From NCBI GenBank assembly GCA_014804245.1, contig JAAVAE010000039.1, positions 32,896-79,451 on the forward strand: a DNA stretch of 46,556 nt, in the 5' to 3' direction. The translations under genes were made by a program, and so were the position numbers. The notes under the pieces were generated by a model. The model saw only the letters and a list, made by a program, of their open reading frames with translations. It made no database searches and was not told the origin of the DNA. Source of the stretch: Lachnospiraceae bacterium (GTDB lineage Bacteria > Bacillota > Clostridia > Lachnospirales > Lachnospiraceae). Positions 4,847 through 17,132 of this stretch are shown here, piece after piece. How positions within the stretch are numbered: the stretch's first letter is position 1; each line of letters starts with the position of its first letter.

Positions 4847-5038
4847 TCAGATTGCTTCGATCTTAGCCATCAGATCATTTATATCCATGCCATGAACCAT
4901 AGCAGCTTCCTCAAGGCTTTCAGCCTGTGCAGAAGGGCAGCCAAGGCAGTGCATGCCTGCTTCCATGAGGATTGGTGCAACATTCGGATTGGTATTTAAA
5001 ATCTCGCCTATTGTCATGTCTTTGGTAATCTGTGCCAT
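4847..5038 (-). CDS. DUF1858 domain protein, 63 aa
   Basis: A short soluble protein starting at ATG 5038 with a perfect AAGGAGG site. It carries the DUF1858 pattern: [24 protein letters not shown] region, then a C-L-G-C pair and a [20 protein letters not shown] helix. Family members are often linked to hybrid-cluster or redox proteins. The CxxC may bind metal or respond to redox state, but this is inference. A good promoter (TTGTCA-17-TATACT) lies upstream, divergent from the PFL operon, so both could share control under anaerobiosis. Confidence 0.88.
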
Positions 5039-5328: not shown

Positions 5329-7368
5329 ATGAGACCAGAATGGAAAGATTTTGTAGGCGGCAAGTGGGAGAATGAAGTTAACGTACGCGACTTCATCCAG
5401 AGAAACTATCATCCTTATGATGGTGATGAATCCTTCTTAGCTGAGGCTACACAGAACACAAAAGACTTATGGCAGATGGTGCTTGATTTGCAGAAGAAAG
5501 AGCGTGAGGCAGGCGGCGTTCTTGATATGGATACGAAGGTTGTATCTACAATCACATCACATGGCCCCGGTTACTTAGACAAGTCTAAGGAAAAAATCGT
5601 TGGTTTCCAGACAGATAAGCCTTTCAAGCGTTCTCTCCAGCCTTACGGCGGTATCAGAATGGCTGAAAAAGCTTGCGCTGACAATGGTTATGAGGTTGAC
5701 CCTGAAATCAGTGAATTCTTCTCAACACACAGAAAGACACACAATGCAGGATGCTTTGATGCTTACAATGCTGAAATGAGAGCATGCCGTTCCGCACATA
5801 TCATTACAGGTCTTCCGGATGCTTACGGACGCGGACGTATCATCGGTGACTACAGACGTGTTGCTCTTTACGGTATTGACAGACTGATCGAAGACAAGCA
5901 GGCTCAGAAGGATTCCACAGGACGCGTTATGACAGATGATGTTATCCGCCTTCGTGAAGAACTTTCCGAGCAGATGGTTGCTCTTAAGATGATGAAGGAA
6001 ATGGCTGCATCCTACGGCTGCGATATTTCCAAACCTGCTACCAACGTACAGGAAGCAATCCAGGCTACTTACTTCGGATATTTATGTTCTGTTAAGGAGC
6101 AGAACGGTGCAGCTATGTCCCTTGGACGTACCTCCACTTTCCTTGACTGCTACGCAGAAAGAGACCTTGCTAACGGAACATTCACAGAGCAGGAGATCCA
6201 GGAATTTGTTGATCACTTCATCATGAAGCTGAGATGCGTAAAATTCGCACGTACTCCTGAATATAACCAGATTTTTGCCGGCGATCCAGTATGGGTAACC
6301 GAATCCCTCGGCGGTGTTGGCGTTGACGGACGTCCTATGGTAACAAAGATGAGCTTCCGTTATCTGCACACACTTACCAACTTAGGTCCCAGCCCTGAAC
6401 CGAACTTAACTGTTCTCTGGTCCACAAGACTTCCTGAAAACTGGAAGAAATACTGCGCAAAGATGTCTATCCAGACTTCTTCCATCCAGTATGAGAATGA
6501 TGACCTCATGAGAGTAACACACGGTGATGACTACGGTATCGCATGCTGCGTATCTTCCATGGTAATCGGTAAGGAAATGCAGTTCTTCGGAGCAAGAGCA
6601 AACCTTGCAAAATGTCTGCTTTACGCGTTAAACGGCGGTGTTGATGAAGTTACCAAGAAACAGGTTGGTCCTAAGTATCGTCCTGTTGAAGGCGATGTCC
6701 TTGATTTTGATGATGTATACAGCAAGTTCATCGATATGATGGAATGGCAGGCAGATGTATATGTAAATACTCTGAATATCATCCATTATATGCATGACAA
6801 ATACTGCTATGAAAGAGCTGAGATGGCGCTTCATGACAGAGATGTTAAGCGCTACTTCGCAACAGGTGTTGCAGGTCTTTCCATCGTGGCTGACTCCTTA
6901 TCCGCTATCAAGCATGCTAAGGTAGAGGTTATCAGAGATGAAGACGGTATCATCGTTGACTTCAAGACAACCGGTGAGTTCCCTAAATATGGTAATGATG
7001 ATGACCGCGTAGACAGCATTGCTCAGGAAGTTGTTCACAAGTTCATGACAGCGATCAGAAGACACCACACCTACAGAAACGGTGTTCCGACAACATCCAT
7101 TCTTACCATTACATCTAACGTAACTTATGGTAAGGCAACAGGAAATACACCTGACGGACGTAAGAAAGGTCAGCCTTTCGCTCCCGGTGCTAACCCGATG
7201 CACGGACGCGATACTCACGGTGCAGTAGCATCCTTATCTTCCGTATCCAAGCTTCCTTTCAATGATGCACAGGATGGTATCTCTAATACCTTCACCATCA
7301 TCCCTGGAGCACTTGGAAAAGAAGACCAGGTATTCGCTGGTGATATCGAACTTGATTTAAATAAGTAA
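5329..7368 (+). CDS. pflB: Pyruvate formate-lyase catalytic subunit lacking its glycyl-radical domain
   Basis: The 679-aa protein covers the ten-stranded barrel of formate C-acetyltransferase: pyruvate + CoA to acetyl-CoA + formate. The active-site cysteine pair is at residues 406-407 (GIACCVSS). The usual C-terminal region is cut short: after the conserved [20 protein letters not shown] stretch the chain ends in [11 protein letters not shown]. The final ~80 residues with the radical-bearing RVSGYA loop are absent, whereas E. coli PflB is about 760 residues. Here 679 plus the 80 aa encoded at 7633 gives that full length, so the enzyme is genetically split. The stop is genuine in this sequence and is followed by new ribosome-binding sites, so this is not a simple frameshift. 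The pfl-activating enzyme is not in the window. Confidence 0.93.
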
Positions 7369-7405
7369 GAATAAACTATAATCCACTTTCGGGAGGTACA
7401 ATGTA

Positions 7406-7609
7406 ATGGATGACAAAAAGATGATTGATGATCTTGTAAAAATGCTGGATTCCGGCATGGCTATGGGAGTAGGTCACGTTAACGTGGACTACGACGAGAC
7501 AAAAGAGAAATCAAAAGATGTTCAGACCATGGGATGCACAGACTGCTCCAGAACGCCTCTGGCGTGCAGCGTACCTACCCTGGAAGATGGATTGGATGAT
7601 TTTCGTTAA
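7406..7609 (+). CDS. 67-aa Cys-motif protein related to the N-terminal half of the glycyl-radical domain
   Basis: It starts at ATG 7406 with GGGAGG nine bases upstream, between the PFL barrel gene and the radical-domain gene. Residues 7-29 (IDDLVKMLDSGMAMGVGHVN and on) align without gaps to residues 8-30 of the downstream radical-domain protein, sharing D, L, V, L, D, H, N and V positions. The RVSGY radical loop is absent. In its place is a tail with C44-x2-C47-x6-C54 (MGCTDCSRTPLACSVPTL) and an acidic end. I do not know a named family. It could be a paralog of the radical domain turned into a chaperone, redox or metal-binding partner, or a mimic that occupies the barrel's docking site when the enzyme is inactive. 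Confidence 0.8.
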   Translation: MDDKKMIDDLVKMLDSGMAMGVGHVNVDYDETKEKSKDVQTMGCTDCSRTPLACSVPTLEDGLDDFR

Positions 7610-7632
7610 GAATAATAAGGAGGTAAATTACT

Positions 7633-7875
7633 ATGGCAACAAATACAGCACAGGTAGACAACTTAGTATCATTATTAGATGGCTACGCAACAAAGGGCGG
7701 ACATCATTTGAATGTTAACGTATTGAACAGAGATATGTTATTAGATGCGCAGAAGCATCCTGAGAATTATCCTCAGCTTACAATCCGTGTTTCAGGATAT
7801 GCTGTTAACTTTATCAAATTGACACCGGAACAGCAGGCTGATGTTATTTCGCGTACATTCCATGAGTCCATCTAA
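7633..7875 (+). CDS. grcA: Autonomous glycyl-radical domain of split pyruvate formate-lyase (GrcA-like)
   Basis: The 80-aa protein is the missing C-terminus of PFL. It contains [18 protein letters not shown], then [15 protein letters not shown] with the radical Gly at residue 55, and ends TFHESI. It starts at ATG 7633 with AGGAGG nine bases upstream. In E. coli, GrcA/YfiD is a spare part that restores an oxygen-cut PFL. Here the barrel gene has no radical domain of its own, so this protein should be an obligatory subunit rather than a repair part. It must be activated by a PFL-activating radical-SAM enzyme encoded elsewhere. It is the last gene of the operon, before a terminator. Confidence 0.92.
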
Positions 7876-9666: not shown

Positions 9667-9794
9667 AATCATGAACCCTAGAATTAGGAAAAAAGTAATA
9701 GAAAGCAAGTAGAATTAATTGTAATAAAAGCTATTGGTAACGTTGCCGGACGGAGAACATACTTCCGGTGATTAAGCATGTGGGGTTGATGAGT

Positions 9795-12700
9795 ATGAAG
9801 CAGAAAATGGAGAAAATGATATCTACCTTAAGAGAAAGAGCGAAGAGAACAGGGATCATAAGAAAGACAGTCGGTCTTGGACTGGCGCTTATGATGGTGA
9901 TTGAAACGCCTTCTTGGAGCGGTCTCATAAGATCGGCGCTTGCACATGAAGATAAAGTGGGATCAGGGCGTTGCATTTATGTAGATACGTCCCTGATTGG
10001 AGCGGATTCAGATGTGATGGAGAGTGGCATCGGAGCGTATGTATATAATCGCGATGGTGGTTCTTATTCTGATGCGCCTATTATAATGGAAAAAGTAGAA
10101 GGGAAAAGGAACGTTTATCAGCTTGTCCTTGATGATTACTATACATATGTAGAATTTACAAAGGGCTCTGATTTAAATACCGGCACGAAGACCGGAGCAC
10201 TGGCAATCGACTGGAGTCTTGGATCACCATGCTATATGTTCAACAGCGAGGCTCTTTCGGATGGAGGACATTTTTATGGCCTTTATACGGTTTACTTTGA
10301 TTTGAATGGTGCCCCGGATGCGAGTGCATTTGCAGATAATGGAGTAGGCGTCTACGCATATAACTCTGATGAAGACAGCTATACCGCTGTCCCAGTGGCT
10401 ATGAAGGCATCAGGTAAGGGTGACAATGTTTATGAATACAGTCTTGATGGGCCTTACGACTGCATTGCATTCATGGGTGGTTATGGCAGCTGGAATTACG
10501 AAGTTGCCACAGCGCCTGTTTACATGGATTGGAGTTACAGTGCCCCTTGCTTCTTCCTTGAGCAGGTGGATGGGCATGAGTCTACTGGTGTATGGCGTAA
10601 TCTTAGATATACAGTTTATTTTGATGCGTCTGACATTAAAGATGATGAGGCCTTTATAGAAAACGGCGTCTGGTTATATGCATTCAATGATTCAGATGAC
10701 AAACTCAGTGAAGATCCAGTAAAAATGGTTGCTTCAAGCGTGGGAAGCTACATATATGAATACACGATGGAAAGACCTTATGAAAATCTGCAGTTTGTAT
10801 TGGGCGATTCTCTTGAGGCAGAGGTTTCATCGCAGGTTCTTGTAAACGACTGGATGACATACGCAGAACCTTGCTACAAGATGACATTAGATAGGAAAGA
10901 AATCCTGATGGCAAGCCCGAGTCCAAGCATGACACCGAGTGCAAGCCCGTCCGGCAGCCCGAGCCCGAGTGTAACACCGAGCATGGATCCTTCCGCAAGC
11001 CCGTCTGGCAGTCCGAGTGCAACTCCTTCGACAAGCCCGAGCGCGGATCCTTCCGCAAGTCCGTCCGGCAGTCCGAGTGCGACACCGAGCATGAAACCGA
11101 GCACAAGCCCGGACGTAACACCGAGCGCAACACCTTCGGCAAATCCGACGGCGACGCCTTCGGCAAATCCGACAGAGGCACCGACAACAGAACCTACAGA
11201 GATACCGACGATTGAGCCTACAGAGGAACCGACCACAGAACCGACATCGGAGCCTACACAGGAACCGGAGCCGGCAGGGGAAGCAACGCCGGAGCCGGTG
11301 GAGGAAGCAACACCGGAGCCGGTACAGGATTCCGAAGAAGATCAGCAGGATACAACATCGGATGATTCGTCATCAGATGAACAGTCGCAGACATTGGATC
11401 AAGCGAGAGCAGCGGCTGAACTGACTGTTACATACGGATCTTATAAAATGATCTGGGTAGGTACAGAAGGCGGAGAAGATATTGAACCCATAACTAATAC
11501 GATAGAGAGTGAAGAGTCTGGAGATACAGATGAGGAGGAACCGTCAACACCGGAGAATCCTCCGACTGTAGATGAATCAACGGATTCTGAGACAACGACA
11601 GATACGGAAGAGCCAGAGGCGCCAGATACTCCGGCAGATGATTCGGATGAAAATCCTACACCTGCGCCCACAACAGGCGGGGAAGAAGATGGGGAGCCTA
11701 TGCCTTCTGATAATCCGGATATGATAAGTGCATCTCCGAGCGCGACACCGATAGGAACTGATGACGAGCCTGTCGTTGAAACGACAATGTCACTGCTCTC
11801 CAGTACAGGCGCTACAATGATGTTCCAGCGTGCAGCTGCATTATCAAGAAGCAATGACAGCGTAACAATTTATTTTGATACGTCGGGTAACGGTTCTTGG
11901 ACAACAGGAGATGCCTATGGGTGGAAGAAAATTGATGCTATGTTCGTCCATTTTTATAATGATGCGGGTGAAAAATTACCAACTACTAACAACTTGGCGA
12001 ATATGAACAGAACAGATTTGCCAGCAAAGGAAGCAGACGGTGTCATATGGGAGTACACCCTTACTAAGGCCCAGGCAGAAAAATTTAAATATGTCATTTT
12101 CCAACGCTATCAAAGCGAGTGGGATAACGATAACCAACAGACGACGAACGACAATGCGATCAATACAATTCCTTACACTATGTCGCGCCCCTGTTTTATA
12201 CTTAGCAGCAGTAATACTAACGAGGCCAAAAAGACAGGTACGTGGTATGATTTGGGACCTTTGTCTCAAAGCGGTGAAAAGATTTATTTCGTCGATATGA
12301 CGTCCCAATATGATGCGGCGAATGTAGAGGCACATTTTGCAGGGAATGGTAATTCAGATACAGTTGGAGAAAGAGATCAGGCAACAGGCGGATATATTAT
12401 ACCTGGAGATACTATTATAGGTTCATATTCGACAGTGACATTTTATGATAAAACGACGAATACTCCAATAGGGGAAACCTATAGTTTCTTCAATGATCCT
12501 GACACGACAAAGGATGAAAAAGGCTTCCGCTATGACAGTGAGGAGTGCAATACTTTCTATTATGGCGCTACTGAAAAGGCGGACGGAACGAAAATCAGCA
12601 CTTGGGGAGCAAGACCTTCTGAAGAGATTGTAAGCTTGGCGGGCAAGAAACTCTATTTTGATAGGTTGTATTTTCAGGTTCCGAAAGATACAAATGAAAA

Positions 12701-15700
12701 TGGCGGAGCAAGTGGAGGTACTGGCACAGGGAATACGAGCGGAACAGGAACGTTGGGAGCCCAGTTCCAGATTGGTACTGAAACACCTGTTTCTCTGACA
12801 GCAGATGAAGGTGATGCCAGAACATACAGCTATACTTTTGACGGCACTTCCACAGCGACTAGTCAATCGATTTTGACTTATTTAGACCAGGATGGGACGA
12901 AGTACCACTTCTTCTGGGATGAATTTGACTTGAAAAATGCGGACGGAACCGTGGTTGAAGGCGGTAACAATCTGGTTACACTTGAAGACGAAATCGCCAG
13001 GGTTAATGGCAAGTATGAAAAGGGAAATTGGATTTACTTTGATGCCACCTTGTCAAAGTTATCTTATGCAGGAAGTTCAAAGGATGCTGCTATCAATGTA
13101 ACTATACCTGGAGATTATGGTGTCTATTGTTGGATGGCAAAGGATAAATATGGGAACGGTGCAAAAACATTTCCCATGGATAAGGTGACGGATAGGGAAA
13201 GCTGGAAGGATGTCTGGAAGGTAAACTTGCTTGAAGGGTATTCTTATGTACGATTTGCAAATTACGATGCTGGGGAGAAGACATTTCAAGATATTAAGGA
13301 TAAATGGGTCAATGTAACGGATGTGTATGAGGTGCCTTGGGATGATTTTGATGATCCCTGCTTTTATGCAGACAGTGGCGATAAGGTACTATATGATTGT
13401 AATGATAATAACAGATTGTGGTGGGGAGGCTACTGGGAGGAGGTTTACACACTCAGGGATGCAGAAAAATACAAAAAAACAGACGTTGTAAATATTGCCG
13501 AAGAATCCAAGGCAATGGATTCCAAAACCCTGTATATGAATGCAACACTGTATGATTATTATACAGACTATGAGTTAAATGGTAATAATCGTGATGATTA
13601 TAAGGTCGGAAATGGCGCAAGCCAGCGGAACTGGGTTACTTTCAGGCAGTTTAACCAGGCATTGAGTGACTATTATGAGGAAAACAATGCCCAGCTTCCC
13701 CTTTATACGGGACACTTTCAGCCAAGTCATACATCGTGGAGTAATAAATTTGCGGATATAGCTGGTACGTTAAATCTGTATGGCTGGGGTAACTATAATA
13801 ATTTCTTTTATGCCAACACATCTACTGTAACCCAAAGCGGCAACACACCTGGTCTTGACTGGCATTATGCCGCACAGGGACTGGTTAACAGCACCCTACA
13901 GGGGAACGATGTTGTCCTATATGGCGGATCGGCACTGGAACCACATTTCAATAAAGATTTTCTTGCTGGAAATAACAGTAAAAATGCCGTTCTGGGAGAA
14001 GTTTATGAGAATGTATCCTTCCCGTTTGTGTCGACAGAATTGTCGGGTAGGGGTGAGGGAGTTAAATACTGGGTATATGACAGCGATAAAACCAGTCTGG
14101 AACTAAAAAAAGATGGAGATGAATACTGGCTCAAGAGTTATGAGGGCAGCAATAAACCAGGCTGGAGCAAGAACCACAGCGCTGAGAATGGTGCGGAGAG
14201 CACGTACGGCTTTTTCCCTTTCAATAACGGGAGCGATGGAAACACTTCCAGTACATATAATTTCGGATATGGTGCCAAGCTGGAATTTAAATTCACGCTG
14301 ACAGAGAATGGAAGGGAAAAGACTACCGATAATAAAGAGGTGCCGATTGTTTTTGAGTTTTCCGGCGATGATGACGTATGGGTATTTATTGACGGAAATC
14401 TGGCACTGGATATCGGAGGACCTCACGGAGCGGTAAGCGGCGAAATTGATTTCAGTGGAGAAGACAGTACCAAAAATGCAAGGGTATATAGCAAGGGTGT
14501 AAAATCAAGCGGCGGTGAAGGTGAATCGACTTTTGAAATAAAAGGCGCAAATACAGATGAGCATACATTCACCATGTTCTACATGGAAAGAGGTATGTGG
14601 GAATCCAACATGAAGATTACGTTCAACTTCCCGGATGAAAACCAGCTGGCAGTTGAGAAGAAAGTAGACGTAAGCGGAGTCAATCCCGCTTTCCAAGGAC
14701 TTTTTAAGAACGTCAGCCTCTTCTCCTTTGAATTAAAGAACCAGGCAACGCACTATGCTGCCGGCGGCATAATTGGATCGGGCCAGAGCGTGGAAAAAGT
14801 GTTCAACGACTCCTTTGCAGGCTCAATAGCCAAGGACAGTGATGCCAATACTTTTGAATCAGTGGGAAGTTATGCCGGAAGGGACAATGTAGTTCACTGG
14901 AGAGCGCGATATAATGAAGCAGGCGGAGGATACAGGGATCAGCGGTGCGGCATAATCTATCCTACCAGTGACGAAGCAAGGAATCTTTCAGATGCCAACC
15001 GGTATCTGCAGTTCGATGTCTACTTTGACGATGACGGAATACCGGCGCTGAACCACATGTACATAGAACTGGTCGATGGAGCGAACTGCAAAATATCGCG
15101 TACCTTAAACGGGGTAACCTATGGAAGCATTGACCTAAACAGGCGTCAGTGGACGACGATAACGGTGGATCTGAGGAAGTTCGTTGGAACTACTGGTTTT
15201 GACTGGACAAACGTGAAGGCTGTCAGGTTTGGCTACAACTTCGAAAAAGATATTTATCTGGACAATTTTATATTTAAATCGCCGTCAAAAGCAGATTCAT
15301 TGACCGGATTTATAACAAAGCAGTATGATATTCCTGATTATGGTTCCGTCGAAGCAAAGGGACTTGTATATCCCAAAGGTGCAGCATACACATTGACGGA
15401 AGCTGATGGAAGCGTATCCTATGGAGTGATAGGGTCTGACGGAAAGTTTGCACTGGCAGACGGAGAAAGCGTGCTTTTCAGGGATCAGTTCAGACGCGGA
15501 AGCTATATCATGCTGAAGGAAATCGCGGATGATGAAGTTTTTGACACCTCATGGACCATGTACGAAAATGGTCAGGCTGTGAAGGGAATGGGTGTCGGAG
15601 ATACGGTAATAAACGGCACGAATGCGGGACTCATCAATATCAATGGCTGTGTTGTGGATGATAAAAGAACAGAAGTATATACGGCAAAGGAGGATGGGGA

Positions 15701-17132
15701 TGAGGTAAATCCGGCGAATACAGGTTATACCGAAACGCGAAGACCCAGTGAGGATGTTTTCGTATTCCGTTCTTATGCAACTCCCGACTATGAGCTTGGC
15801 ATGACTAAGCTGAAGGTGGTGTATACGAATACAGTCAGGACTGGTACGCTTACCATCCGCAAGGAGAAATCCGACAAGTCAGAGAATCTGACGGGAACTT
15901 ACACATTTAATGTCACCTTCGCAAATGTAGCAGGCATGGGACTTGAGAACGAACCGATTACCATGACCTTCACGCTTAAGCAGGATCAGGAGCGTACAAT
16001 TACAGGTATACCGGTCAACACGGAATTTACCATAACTGAGACACCGTCAGACAAATCCTTCCTCGAGGATGTGACAATGGTAACAGGCAGCGGCATTACC
16101 ATCAATTCCGAGACGAAAGAAGTGGCAGGACAGATTACTGAAAGCGGCAGTGATGTGAAGCTGATTTTCACCAATATGCTCAAGCCGGTCATTGACATCC
16201 ATGTTGAGAAGACATGGAAGAATGCAGACGGCACTGCTGTGGAGGATAAGGATAACCAACTGCCTGAGTATCTCCTGATCCGCCTGCAGAGAAGAGAAAA
16301 AGGTTCACAGGGTGAATGGCAGGATGTGATCATCAAGGGACAGGAAACGGCAAATATCAAGATAGGCAACAATCAGGCAAGAACTTGGGAATACAAGTTT
16401 GCAGACCTTGATAAATATGTAGACAATAAAGCAGCTGACAAGATTTTATGGGAATACCGTGTCGTGGAAGTACAGGAAGACAGCGGAAACGTGACTGTGG
16501 TTGAAAAAGGAGGAATCTGGGACAATAAATTCCAGGTAACCTACTCAGATCCAGTATTCGGAGATGAAACTTTAAGTGCCGACGCGGAAGAAAAGCTTGA
16601 AAGTACAATCACCAACATACATAATGTGTCTTTGAAGGTTAAAAAGGTGGATGCCAGCGGTCAGCCTCTTGGAGGGGTTTCCTTCCAATTGCAGAGGAAA
16701 GACAATGAGGGCAACTGGAAACCTGTAGAAGTGACGGTAAATAATACCAAGGTGGATACAATTACAACACCGACCAAGGAAGAGAACCCGGTAGGAGGAG
16801 CAGGTGTTATTATCTTTGCAAATCTTCCCAGCGGTGAGTATCAGTTAATCGAAACAGCGACAGCACCGGGGCATACGCTTTTGGCAAACCCTATTTCGAT
16901 TACCATCAATGCAAACGGAGACTTCAAATACACAATCAACGGAATAGAGCAGACCCCTGTGGATAACACGGTCGAACTTACGATTAAGAATGGTCAGAAT
17001 CTGACGATGCCGTCAACCGGTGGAGCAGGACCAATCCCGTTTACTGTAGGCGGCTTAAGCATTTGCATAATTGCCAGCCTTATGTATATAGATAGTATGC
17101 GTAAGCGCAGAAAGGAGGGTAAAGCCTCCTGA
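9795..17132 (+). CDS. Giant pilus-tip adhesin with fibro-slime, carbohydrate-binding-like and Cna-B domains
   Basis: The 2,445-aa surface protein is the first gene of the pilus operon. I prefer ATG 9795 (GTGGGG nine bases upstream); ATG 9789 and GTG 9768 are possible. A signal/export region covers about 16-52. Three ~95-aa repeats follow (about 58-152, 164-258, 272-366; each has a YxxYFD-type start and a PCY/PCF end), then a Pro/Ser/Thr linker (373-516) and an acidic stretch to about 686. A fourth repeat (690-804) and related modules lead to a fibro-slime/PA14-like domain (about 1216-1616; FSGDDDVWVFIDGNLALDIG). A jelly-roll, carbohydrate-binding-like segment lies at about 1675-1832, and three Cna-B/SpaA-like domains at about 2016-2398. 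The end has MPSTG (2405-2409), a membrane helix and a KRRK tail. The role is inferred to be tip adhesion to host or plant glycan. Confidence 0.88.
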   Translation: MKQKMEKMISTLRERAKRTGIIRKTVGLGLALMMVIETPSWSGLIRSALAHEDKVGSGRCIYVDTSLIGADSDVMESGIGAYVYNRDGGSYSDAPIIMEKVEGKRNVYQLVLDDYYTYVEFTKGSDLNTGTKTGALAIDWSLGSPCYMFNSEALSDGGHFYGLYTVYFDLNGAPDASAFADNGVGVYAYNSDEDSYTAVPVAMKASGKGDNVYEYSLDGPYDCIAFMGGYGSWNYEVATAPVYMDWSYSAPCFFLEQVDGHESTGVWRNLRYTVYFDASDIKDDEAFIENGVWLYAFNDSDDKLSEDPVKMVASSVGSYIYEYTMERPYENLQFVLGDSLEAEVSSQVLVNDWMTYAEPCYKMTLDRKEILMASPSPSMTPSASPSGSPSPSVTPSMDPSASPSGSPSATPSTSPSADPSASPSGSPSATPSMKPSTSPDVTPSATPSANPTATPSANPTEAPTTEPTEIPTIEPTEEPTTEPTSEPTQEPEPAGEATPEPVEEATPEPVQDSEEDQQDTTSDDSSSDEQSQTLDQARAAAELTVTYGSYKMIWVGTEGGEDIEPITNTIESEESGDTDEEEPSTPENPPTVDESTDSETTTDTEEPEAPDTPADDSDENPTPAPTTGGEEDGEPMPSDNPDMISASPSATPIGTDDEPVVETTMSLLSSTGATMMFQRAAALSRSNDSVTIYFDTSGNGSWTTGDAYGWKKIDAMFVHFYNDAGEKLPTTNNLANMNRTDLPAKEADGVIWEYTLTKAQAEKFKYVIFQRYQSEWDNDNQQTTNDNAINTIPYTMSRPCFILSSSNTNEAKKTGTWYDLGPLSQSGEKIYFVDMTSQYDAANVEAHFAGNGNSDTVGERDQATGGYIIPGDTIIGSYSTVTFYDKTTNTPIGETYSFFNDPDTTKDEKGFRYDSEECNTFYYGATEKADGTKISTWGARPSEEIVSLAGKKLYFDRLYFQVPKDTNENGGASGGTGTGNTSGTGTLGAQFQIGTETPVSLTADEGDARTYSYTFDGTSTATSQSILTYLDQDGTKYHFFWDEFDLKNADGTVVEGGNNLVTLEDEIARVNGKYEKGNWIYFDATLSKLSYAGSSKDAAINVTIPGDYGVYCWMAKDKYGNGAKTFPMDKVTDRESWKDVWKVNLLEGYSYVRFANYDAGEKTFQDIKDKWVNVTDVYEVPWDDFDDPCFYADSGDKVLYDCNDNNRLWWGGYWEEVYTLRDAEKYKKTDVVNIAEESKAMDSKTLYMNATLYDYYTDYELNGNNRDDYKVGNGASQRNWVTFRQFNQALSDYYEENNAQLPLYTGHFQPSHTSWSNKFADIAGTLNLYGWGNYNNFFYANTSTVTQSGNTPGLDWHYAAQGLVNSTLQGNDVVLYGGSALEPHFNKDFLAGNNSKNAVLGEVYENVSFPFVSTELSGRGEGVKYWVYDSDKTSLELKKDGDEYWLKSYEGSNKPGWSKNHSAENGAESTYGFFPFNNGSDGNTSSTYNFGYGAKLEFKFTLTENGREKTTDNKEVPIVFEFSGDDDVWVFIDGNLALDIGGPHGAVSGEIDFSGEDSTKNARVYSKGVKSSGGEGESTFEIKGANTDEHTFTMFYMERGMWESNMKITFNFPDENQLAVEKKVDVSGVNPAFQGLFKNVSLFSFELKNQATHYAAGGIIGSGQSVEKVFNDSFAGSIAKDSDANTFESVGSYAGRDNVVHWRARYNEAGGGYRDQRCGIIYPTSDEARNLSDANRYLQFDVYFDDDGIPALNHMYIELVDGANCKISRTLNGVTYGSIDLNRRQWTTITVDLRKFVGTTGFDWTNVKAVRFGYNFEKDIYLDNFIFKSPSKADSLTGFITKQYDIPDYGSVEAKGLVYPKGAAYTLTEADGSVSYGVIGSDGKFALADGESVLFRDQFRRGSYIMLKEIADDEVFDTSWTMYENGQAVKGMGVGDTVINGTNAGLININGCVVDDKRTEVYTAKEDGDEVNPANTGYTETRRPSEDVFVFRSYATPDYELGMTKLKVVYTNTVRTGTLTIRKEKSDKSENLTGTYTFNVTFANVAGMGLENEPITMTFTLKQDQERTITGIPVNTEFTITETPSDKSFLEDVTMVTGSGITINSETKEVAGQITESGSDVKLIFTNMLKPVIDIHVEKTWKNADGTAVEDKDNQLPEYLLIRLQRREKGSQGEWQDVIIKGQETANIKIGNNQARTWEYKFADLDKYVDNKAADKILWEYRVVEVQEDSGNVTVVEKGGIWDNKFQVTYSDPVFGDETLSADAEEKLESTITNIHNVSLKVKKVDASGQPLGGVSFQLQRKDNEGNWKPVEVTVNNTKVDTITTPTKEENPVGGAGVIIFANLPSGEYQLIETATAPGHTLLANPISITINANGDFKYTINGIEQTPVDNTVELTIKNGQNLTMPSTGGAGPIPFTVGGLSICIIASLMYIDSMRKRRKEGKAS

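Follow-up and report, generated by a model that had tools for sequence, protein, structure and literature searches.

In a Lachnospiraceae bacterium whose pyruvate formate-lyase (PFL) is split, a short gene lying between the barrel gene and the gene of the separate glycyl radical subunit codes for a 67-residue protein made of two halves, a copy of the N-terminus of the radical subunit and a tail with an invariant pair of cysteines. Judged by sequence, this tail appears to be the same element as the C-terminal tail borne by the barrel itself in some relatives devoid of the middle gene, a relation that is new. Sequence comparison establishes that the protein is modular, that the tail is exchanged between a cis and a trans location, that its Cys pair is invariant and that the barrels retain the catalytic cysteines C418-C419 (E. 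coli numbering). We propose that a split PFL receives its C-terminal tail in trans, in the form of the middle protein, and that the dithiol of this tail would keep reduced or re-reduce the catalytic Cys pair as long as the radical subunit is off the barrel, a proposal whose chances we put just short of even.

The middle gene lies between the two pieces of a split PFL

The stretch of DNA that was analyzed, hereafter the window, comprises 46,556 nt of a Lachnospiraceae bacterium (GCA_014804245.1, contig JAAVAE010000039.1, positions 32,896-79,451 of the forward strand). The first gene of the locus (5329..7368, on the plus strand like the features that follow) codes for a PFL barrel subunit of 679 aa that has neither a radical domain nor a Cys tail. 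It is identified as a PFL by its score of 1087 bits against TIGR01255 (cut-off 994) and by its catalytic Cys-Cys pair (6544..6549, motif IACCVSS), which is equivalent to E. coli C418-C419 and is retained in 69/69 aligned barrel rows. The end of the barrel covers only positions 1-51 of the 106 positions of Pfam Gly_radical. The last gene (7633..7875), preceded by a ribosome-binding site AAGGAGG (7617..7623), codes for the separate glycyl radical subunit of 80 aa, with the radical glycine codon of its RVSGY loop at 7795..7797. Such a subunit already has a name in NCBIfam, and the protein of the window matches the corresponding model (NF038360, 'autonomous glycyl radical cofactor GrcA3') with 160 bits, for a cut-off of 158. 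The middle gene (7406..7609) starts with an ATG and has a ribosome-binding site of its own, GGGAGG (7391..7396), nine bases before this ATG.

The activase gene pflA is found on the same contig outside the window (G000:C39:28771-29472), about 8.8 kb upstream of the barrel and on the other strand; among the best 80 of 370 relatives described below, 79 loci hold GrcA3, and in 57 of them a motif search placed pflA downstream at a distance of up to 1.5 kb. A 63-aa protein, which resembles a DUF1858 protein, is encoded next to pfl on the minus strand (4847-5038), and a 2454-aa open reading frame at 9768-17132, partly rich in Ser, Pro and Thr, has the look of a surface protein.

The middle protein was found in 32 of the 36 genomes of the genus, the window's own counted, in 2/24 other genomes of the order and, by profile search, in 42/295 genomes of the order. 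Forty-six genomes passed the threshold of this profile search, four of them through cross-hits to GrcA3 or full-length PFL that were dropped. A scan of the species genomes gave 407 pattern matches; 370 code for relatives, and the best 80 of these were retained. The order barrel-middle-GrcA3 is observed in 79 of these best 80 loci, the exception (L096) being devoid of GrcA3 because its contig ends. It is also observed in 43 of the 44 loci where a barrel can be seen; in the remaining one (L201) the middle gene comes just after GrcA3 (barrel-GrcA3-middle). A further middle-gene locus, L147, has no barrel in view. These observations bear out the first-pass annotation, which had described a gene translated from its own ribosome-binding site between the split pfl pieces and had made its conservation in related genomes a point to be checked.

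That annotation also knew no description of the protein, and our literature searches found none either; the word GrcA3 was likewise not found. The middle protein matched none of the Pfam families (E up to 10) and nothing better than E 0.27 in PHROG, and its profile retrieved from PDB sequences, at E up to 1, a single match to an interleukin (E 0.29) that we take as chance.

Some loci show peculiarities. The barrel is in two pieces in L105, and an in-frame stop interrupts it at L211:4320-4322 (G526); both may be assembly errors. In L074 and L097, the spacer before the middle gene repeats the 3' end of the barrel gene (..ELDLNK or ..ELDLK), which is a local duplication. Finally, L156:5816-6202 (G327:C3) codes for a diverged, lone paralog of the middle N-terminal half (E 5.0e-6) with another Cys-bearing end; matches to the barrel and to GrcA3 are absent within 11 kb around it.

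The N-terminal half is a copy of the GrcA3 N-terminus

Residues 1-30 of the middle protein (7406..7495) are a copy of the N-terminus of GrcA3, as indicated by shuffles and profile matches. The ungapped alignment of residues 7-29 with GrcA3 residues 8-30, on which the first-pass annotation was built, is real: the best 23-mer pairs residues 6-28 with GrcA3 residues 7-29 in the same register, with a BLOSUM62 score of 46 and 9 identities, and 0/1000 shuffled versions of the middle protein reach this score. Profiles built from the middle family match GrcA3 N-termini with E values of about 3e-6 to 7e-3 per genome. The NCBIfam GrcA3 model also picks up this half, weakly (13.9 bits, E 0.045, for a cut-off of 158).

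The middle protein thus shares with the GrcA3/GrcA/YfiD proteins (NF038360, TIGR04365; PDB 6owr) an N-terminal piece containing a GGH.NV strand, and with GrcA3 the operon and the link to PFL. It differs from them by its low score and by the Cys-pair tail that it has instead of the RVSGY glycine loop; this glycyl radical loop is found in 0/22 aligned members of the middle family. Solved YfiD matches GrcA3 from residue 20 onward only, and E. coli PFL matches it from residue 8. The N-terminal half corresponds to about residues 684 to 709 of E. coli PFL, and by this comparison residues 1-30 would fold as a helix followed by the GGH.NV strand, the strand being assigned from PMC8683613. The copied stretch overlaps residues 696-733 of E. 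coli PFL, which are required for YfiD binding according to that article (PMC8683613). Compared to E. coli PFL, the barrel studied here has no equivalent of 696-733, and the middle protein supplies a part-copy of it in trans. Oxygen-cleaved E. coli PFL together with YfiD likewise consists of a barrel and a separate radical domain, but the PFL studied here is permanently split at the level of its genes.

The C-terminal half is a two-cysteine tail

The second half of the middle protein contains the tail (residues 43-67, 7532..7606). In the window it reads C44-x2-C47-x6-C54, with Cys44 at 7535..7537, Cys47 at 7544..7546 and Cys54 at 7565..7567. Among 22 aligned members of the family, the invariant columns are D15, C47, C54 and P57, and the spacing between C47 and C54 varies. 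C44 is constant in 79 rows (the window and 78 near relatives) and variable among the 22 wider members. The three-cysteine pattern given in the first-pass annotation is hence present in the window, but its first cysteine is not a family-wide feature. That annotation also considered the RVSGY loop to be replaced by a Cys-rich segment; the loop is indeed missing, but the C-terminal half is more than a substitution of the loop and forms an independent tail element. In the 79 rows, third codon positions of the tail differ by 0.499 and residues by 0.078, and the tail looks to be under purifying selection. The Cys pair is followed by a conserved PTL..G.D, which by its look may be a binding motif.

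A metal ion or a Fe-S cluster could be bound by these cysteines, as in small subunits of some glycyl radical enzymes. Such Fe-S subunits have four conserved cysteine ligands, and the middle family has only two invariant cysteines, whose spacing moreover varies, which argues against this role. We know of no copy of the radical domain in the beta and gamma subunits of benzylsuccinate synthase, which are likewise small Cys-bearing accessory proteins of a glycyl radical enzyme. Some tails do contain three or four cysteines (DCLCCEP, GCCCGAGAC), the clade of the window having three, and both BSS and HPAD have Fe-S small subunits according to PMC12590467. The same source describes benzylsuccinate synthase beta and gamma as HiPIP-like [4Fe-4S] proteins (PMC12590467), and their ligand set is absent from the middle protein. 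Altogether, we consider metal binding very improbable.

Some barrels devoid of the middle gene carry the tail in cis

Separate GrcA3 genes were taken from among the matches listed for 295 genomes of the order and 391 of the class, where low-scoring ones may be missing. Seventy-six loci were tallied, G128 being outside this tally, and nine with no barrel in view were dropped (seven lone GrcA3 copies, G305 and L147), leaving 67 barrels from 67 genomes, 44 with the middle gene and 23 without. Among these listed matches, at least two cysteines in the barrel tail after ALG were found in 0/44 barrels accompanied by the middle gene and in 18/23 of the others (Fisher p 3.6e-12, relatedness being ignored). 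A phylogeny-aware test on independent pairs, which had four supported pairs, was not significant. A phylum sample of 398 genomes, some from the class itself, was also searched at a strict threshold of E 1e-41, at which divergent separate GrcA3 may be missed; three genomes passed it, G000, G063 and G924, the last with a full-length PFL.

Eight of the 18 cis tails, such as DCSNGACSTPTLFEGLD (G433), match the profile of the middle tail above all 2000 shuffled tails, and in these eight genomes the barrel C-terminus is clearly the same element as residues 43-67 of the middle protein. Cores found among the cis tails include CSNGAC (G433, G621), CDNGAC (G407), CASGAC (G605) and CQGGAC (G526). The remaining ten have no match to the profile: seven read DCxCCEP, including five that come from a single genus, two read GCCE and one reads CGGDC. 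For these ten, equivalence therefore rests on the Cys pair and its place. Furthermore, in 4/11 cis genomes searched the profile of the whole middle protein splits over two adjoining genes, its N-terminal half matching GrcA3 and its C-terminal half the last residues of the barrel. The E values are 2.0e-4 (G407), 1.2e-3 (G431), 2.5e-3 (G261, where the match runs across the barrel stop codon) and 2.6e-3 (G526).

Cis lineages have no docking copy and keep the tail. The first-pass annotation had suggested that the middle protein may hold the docking site, deliver the radical domain or sense metal. The keeping of the tail in cis lineages bears on a reading in line with this picture, in which the protein would be a dummy radical domain that caps the docking site until GrcA3 comes, or a thiol quencher of a stray radical. 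Its N-terminal half does copy that part of GrcA3, and an accessory subunit of benzylsuccinate synthase triggers thiyl radical formation and shortens the radical lifetime, as stated in PMC12590467. However, capping cannot be a function shared with lineages that have the tail and no docking copy, so a mere docking dummy is less likely, and we find this reading quite unlikely overall. In five split PFLs (G223, G478, G514, G574, G673) both the middle gene and a Cys-pair tail are missing, and a search of their whole genomes, that of G478 being 82% complete, revealed no middle gene elsewhere; the tail is therefore not indispensable.

An apparent repeated exchange of the tail between the barrel and the middle gene

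On a tree of 69 barrels from which the tail columns were removed, the trans and cis states alternate. Each label requires 7 changes; supported branches force at least 4 of them for trans and at least 3 for cis. Grouping the trans barrels in one clade was rejected (p-AU 1e-65, thinned set of 50 rows). A second tree of 68 rows included eighteen full-length PFLs from among the matches listed and omitted G514, G478, G177, E. coli and near-copies. In this tree, a single supported clade (97*) unites the split barrels with three full-length PFLs, G161, G277 and G642, the last being one of the eighteen (the three together 99*). A clade of split barrels without these three was rejected (p-AU 6e-4); the first tree was already known when both p-AU tests were run. 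In its simplest form, the history would comprise a single fission, a tail that moved repeatedly from the barrel to the middle gene or back, and a single re-fusion accompanied by tail loss.

The three full-length PFLs located inside the split clade (loci L199, L200, L233) have a GrcA3-like radical domain and look like re-fusions. In the 45 residues from ALG, 17 of the eighteen full-length PFLs have no cysteine and one has a single cysteine. Cysteines at barrel positions equivalent to E. coli 122, 159, 441 and 505 are commoner in split than in full-length PFLs and were considered as partners of the tail. This idea was rejected since the re-fused PFLs keep most of them (2, 3, 3 and 2 of 3, respectively), so that they look like marks of the clade; position 441 is a cysteine in 48/48 split, 3/3 re-fused and 1/18 other full-length PFLs.

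The re-fused PFLs are relevant to the chief rival explanation, according to which the tail, whether in cis or in trans, would serve above all for the docking or recognition of GrcA3, standing in for residues 696-733 of E. coli PFL. As part of this explanation, the two cysteines would be a redox gate allowing GrcA3 to dock and be activated only under reducing conditions. All three re-fused PFLs are devoid of Cys at the tail place, a fact that also speaks for our preferred reading, and PTL..G.D has the look of a binding motif. The barrel of the window stops before the equivalent of 696-733, about where the cis tails stand (counted by eye), and cleaved E. coli PFL lacking 696-733 shows undetectable YfiD binding and a 32-fold lower activation according to PMC8683613. 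Nevertheless, the five split PFLs cited above do without any Cys-pair tail, and the seven DCxCCEP tails keep their cysteines without PTL..G.D, so the cysteines seem to be the more constant part. We hold a role restricted mainly to recognition to be rather unlikely.

A possible redox role for the tail

We come back to the preferred reading, a dithiol tail that looks after the catalytic cysteines. We infer that the copied half docks on the barrel at the place where the GrcA3 N-terminus docks, and that the docked protein would bring its dithiol to the barrel entrance. There, the Cys pair could act as does the pair that swings at the C-terminus of class I/II ribonucleotide reductase (RNR). It would keep or make C418-C419 reduced during periods when the barrel has no radical subunit, or when oxygen damage has led to an exchange of that subunit, and a thioredoxin-type donor of the cell would reduce it in turn. 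GrcA3 would replace the damaged radical, and the tail would rescue the damaged thiols. Oxygen inactivation of PFL reportedly involves C419 and a sulfinyl radical. PFL, unlike RNR, has no net redox demand; because its chemistry needs no reductant, a redox role of the tail would be one of repair or protection rather than turnover.

PFL and RNR share the barrel fold, and both tails present a Cys pair of variable spacing at the end of a thiyl-radical barrel enzyme. Two cysteines close to the C-terminal end, either of the barrel or within the tail element, are found in 22/22 middle-family members and in the 18 of 23 barrels without middle gene. The E. coli NrdA end, GCESGACKI, displays the CxxGAC pattern seen in several cis tails (DCSNGAC in G433), a likeness noted by eye and too short for a statistical test; a search of PDB sequences with a 25-residue cis tail at E up to 10 gave nothing, NrdA included. 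The two tails also differ, since NrdA stops right after the Cys pair whereas the split-PFL tail continues with PTL..G.D, and since the latter is attached to PFL and, in many genomes, to a separate docking protein. Class I/II RNR tails re-reduce the active-site disulfide and are reduced by thioredoxin or glutaredoxin, as described in PMC4390871, and the rescue of oxygen-damaged PFL by YfiD/GrcA as a spare part is established according to PMC8683613.

Structure predictions of read-through single chains had a mean pLDDT of 41.8 for barrel and middle protein and of 34.7 when GrcA3 was added, and are uninformative on docking. No thioredoxin or desulfoferrodoxin motif was found when the surroundings of the split pfl genes were searched for such motifs, on the strand of these genes. 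A half-site model, with GrcA3 on one protomer and the middle protein on the other, was considered and set aside.

Seven of the tallied genomes carry a lone GrcA3 (among the matches listed). That of G269 (L196:5884-8272, contig C30) adjoins genes for thioredoxin, rubrerythrin, a desulfoferrodoxin-like protein (below the model cut-off) and a Crp/Fnr-like protein, neighbors that fit an oxygen-stress setting, and the locus looks like an oxygen-stress island that includes a spare part for PFL. The genome of the window has itself a second, lone GrcA3 away from pfl (L193:5226-5459, G000:C7), next to a gene resembling Crp/Fnr-type regulators (below model cut-offs).

Implications for split PFLs

Among the fermentation enzymes of gut anaerobes, PFL has a central place, and oxygen destroys it. 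To our knowledge, the spare-part idea has so far covered the glycyl radical only; a conserved dithiol tail moving between cis and trans would mean that the catalytic thiols are looked after as well, in parallel to the ribonucleotide reductase tail that carries electrons to the active site. In a wider reading, which we see as possible with the balance somewhat against it, the split PFLs of gut Clostridia would be built for repair, from a barrel, a replaceable radical subunit and an RNR-type redox tail movable between the barrel and a docking module; the docking module would have been made from the radical subunit, and the tail cut off the barrel, moved there and moved back. The protein is short and testable, and nature offers a series of variants, with the tail in trans, in cis, missing, or lost with re-fusion. 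If the wider reading is true, no other dithiol repair module would be known so far among glycyl radical enzymes, and a tail resembling that of RNR would have arisen independently on the related barrel fold.
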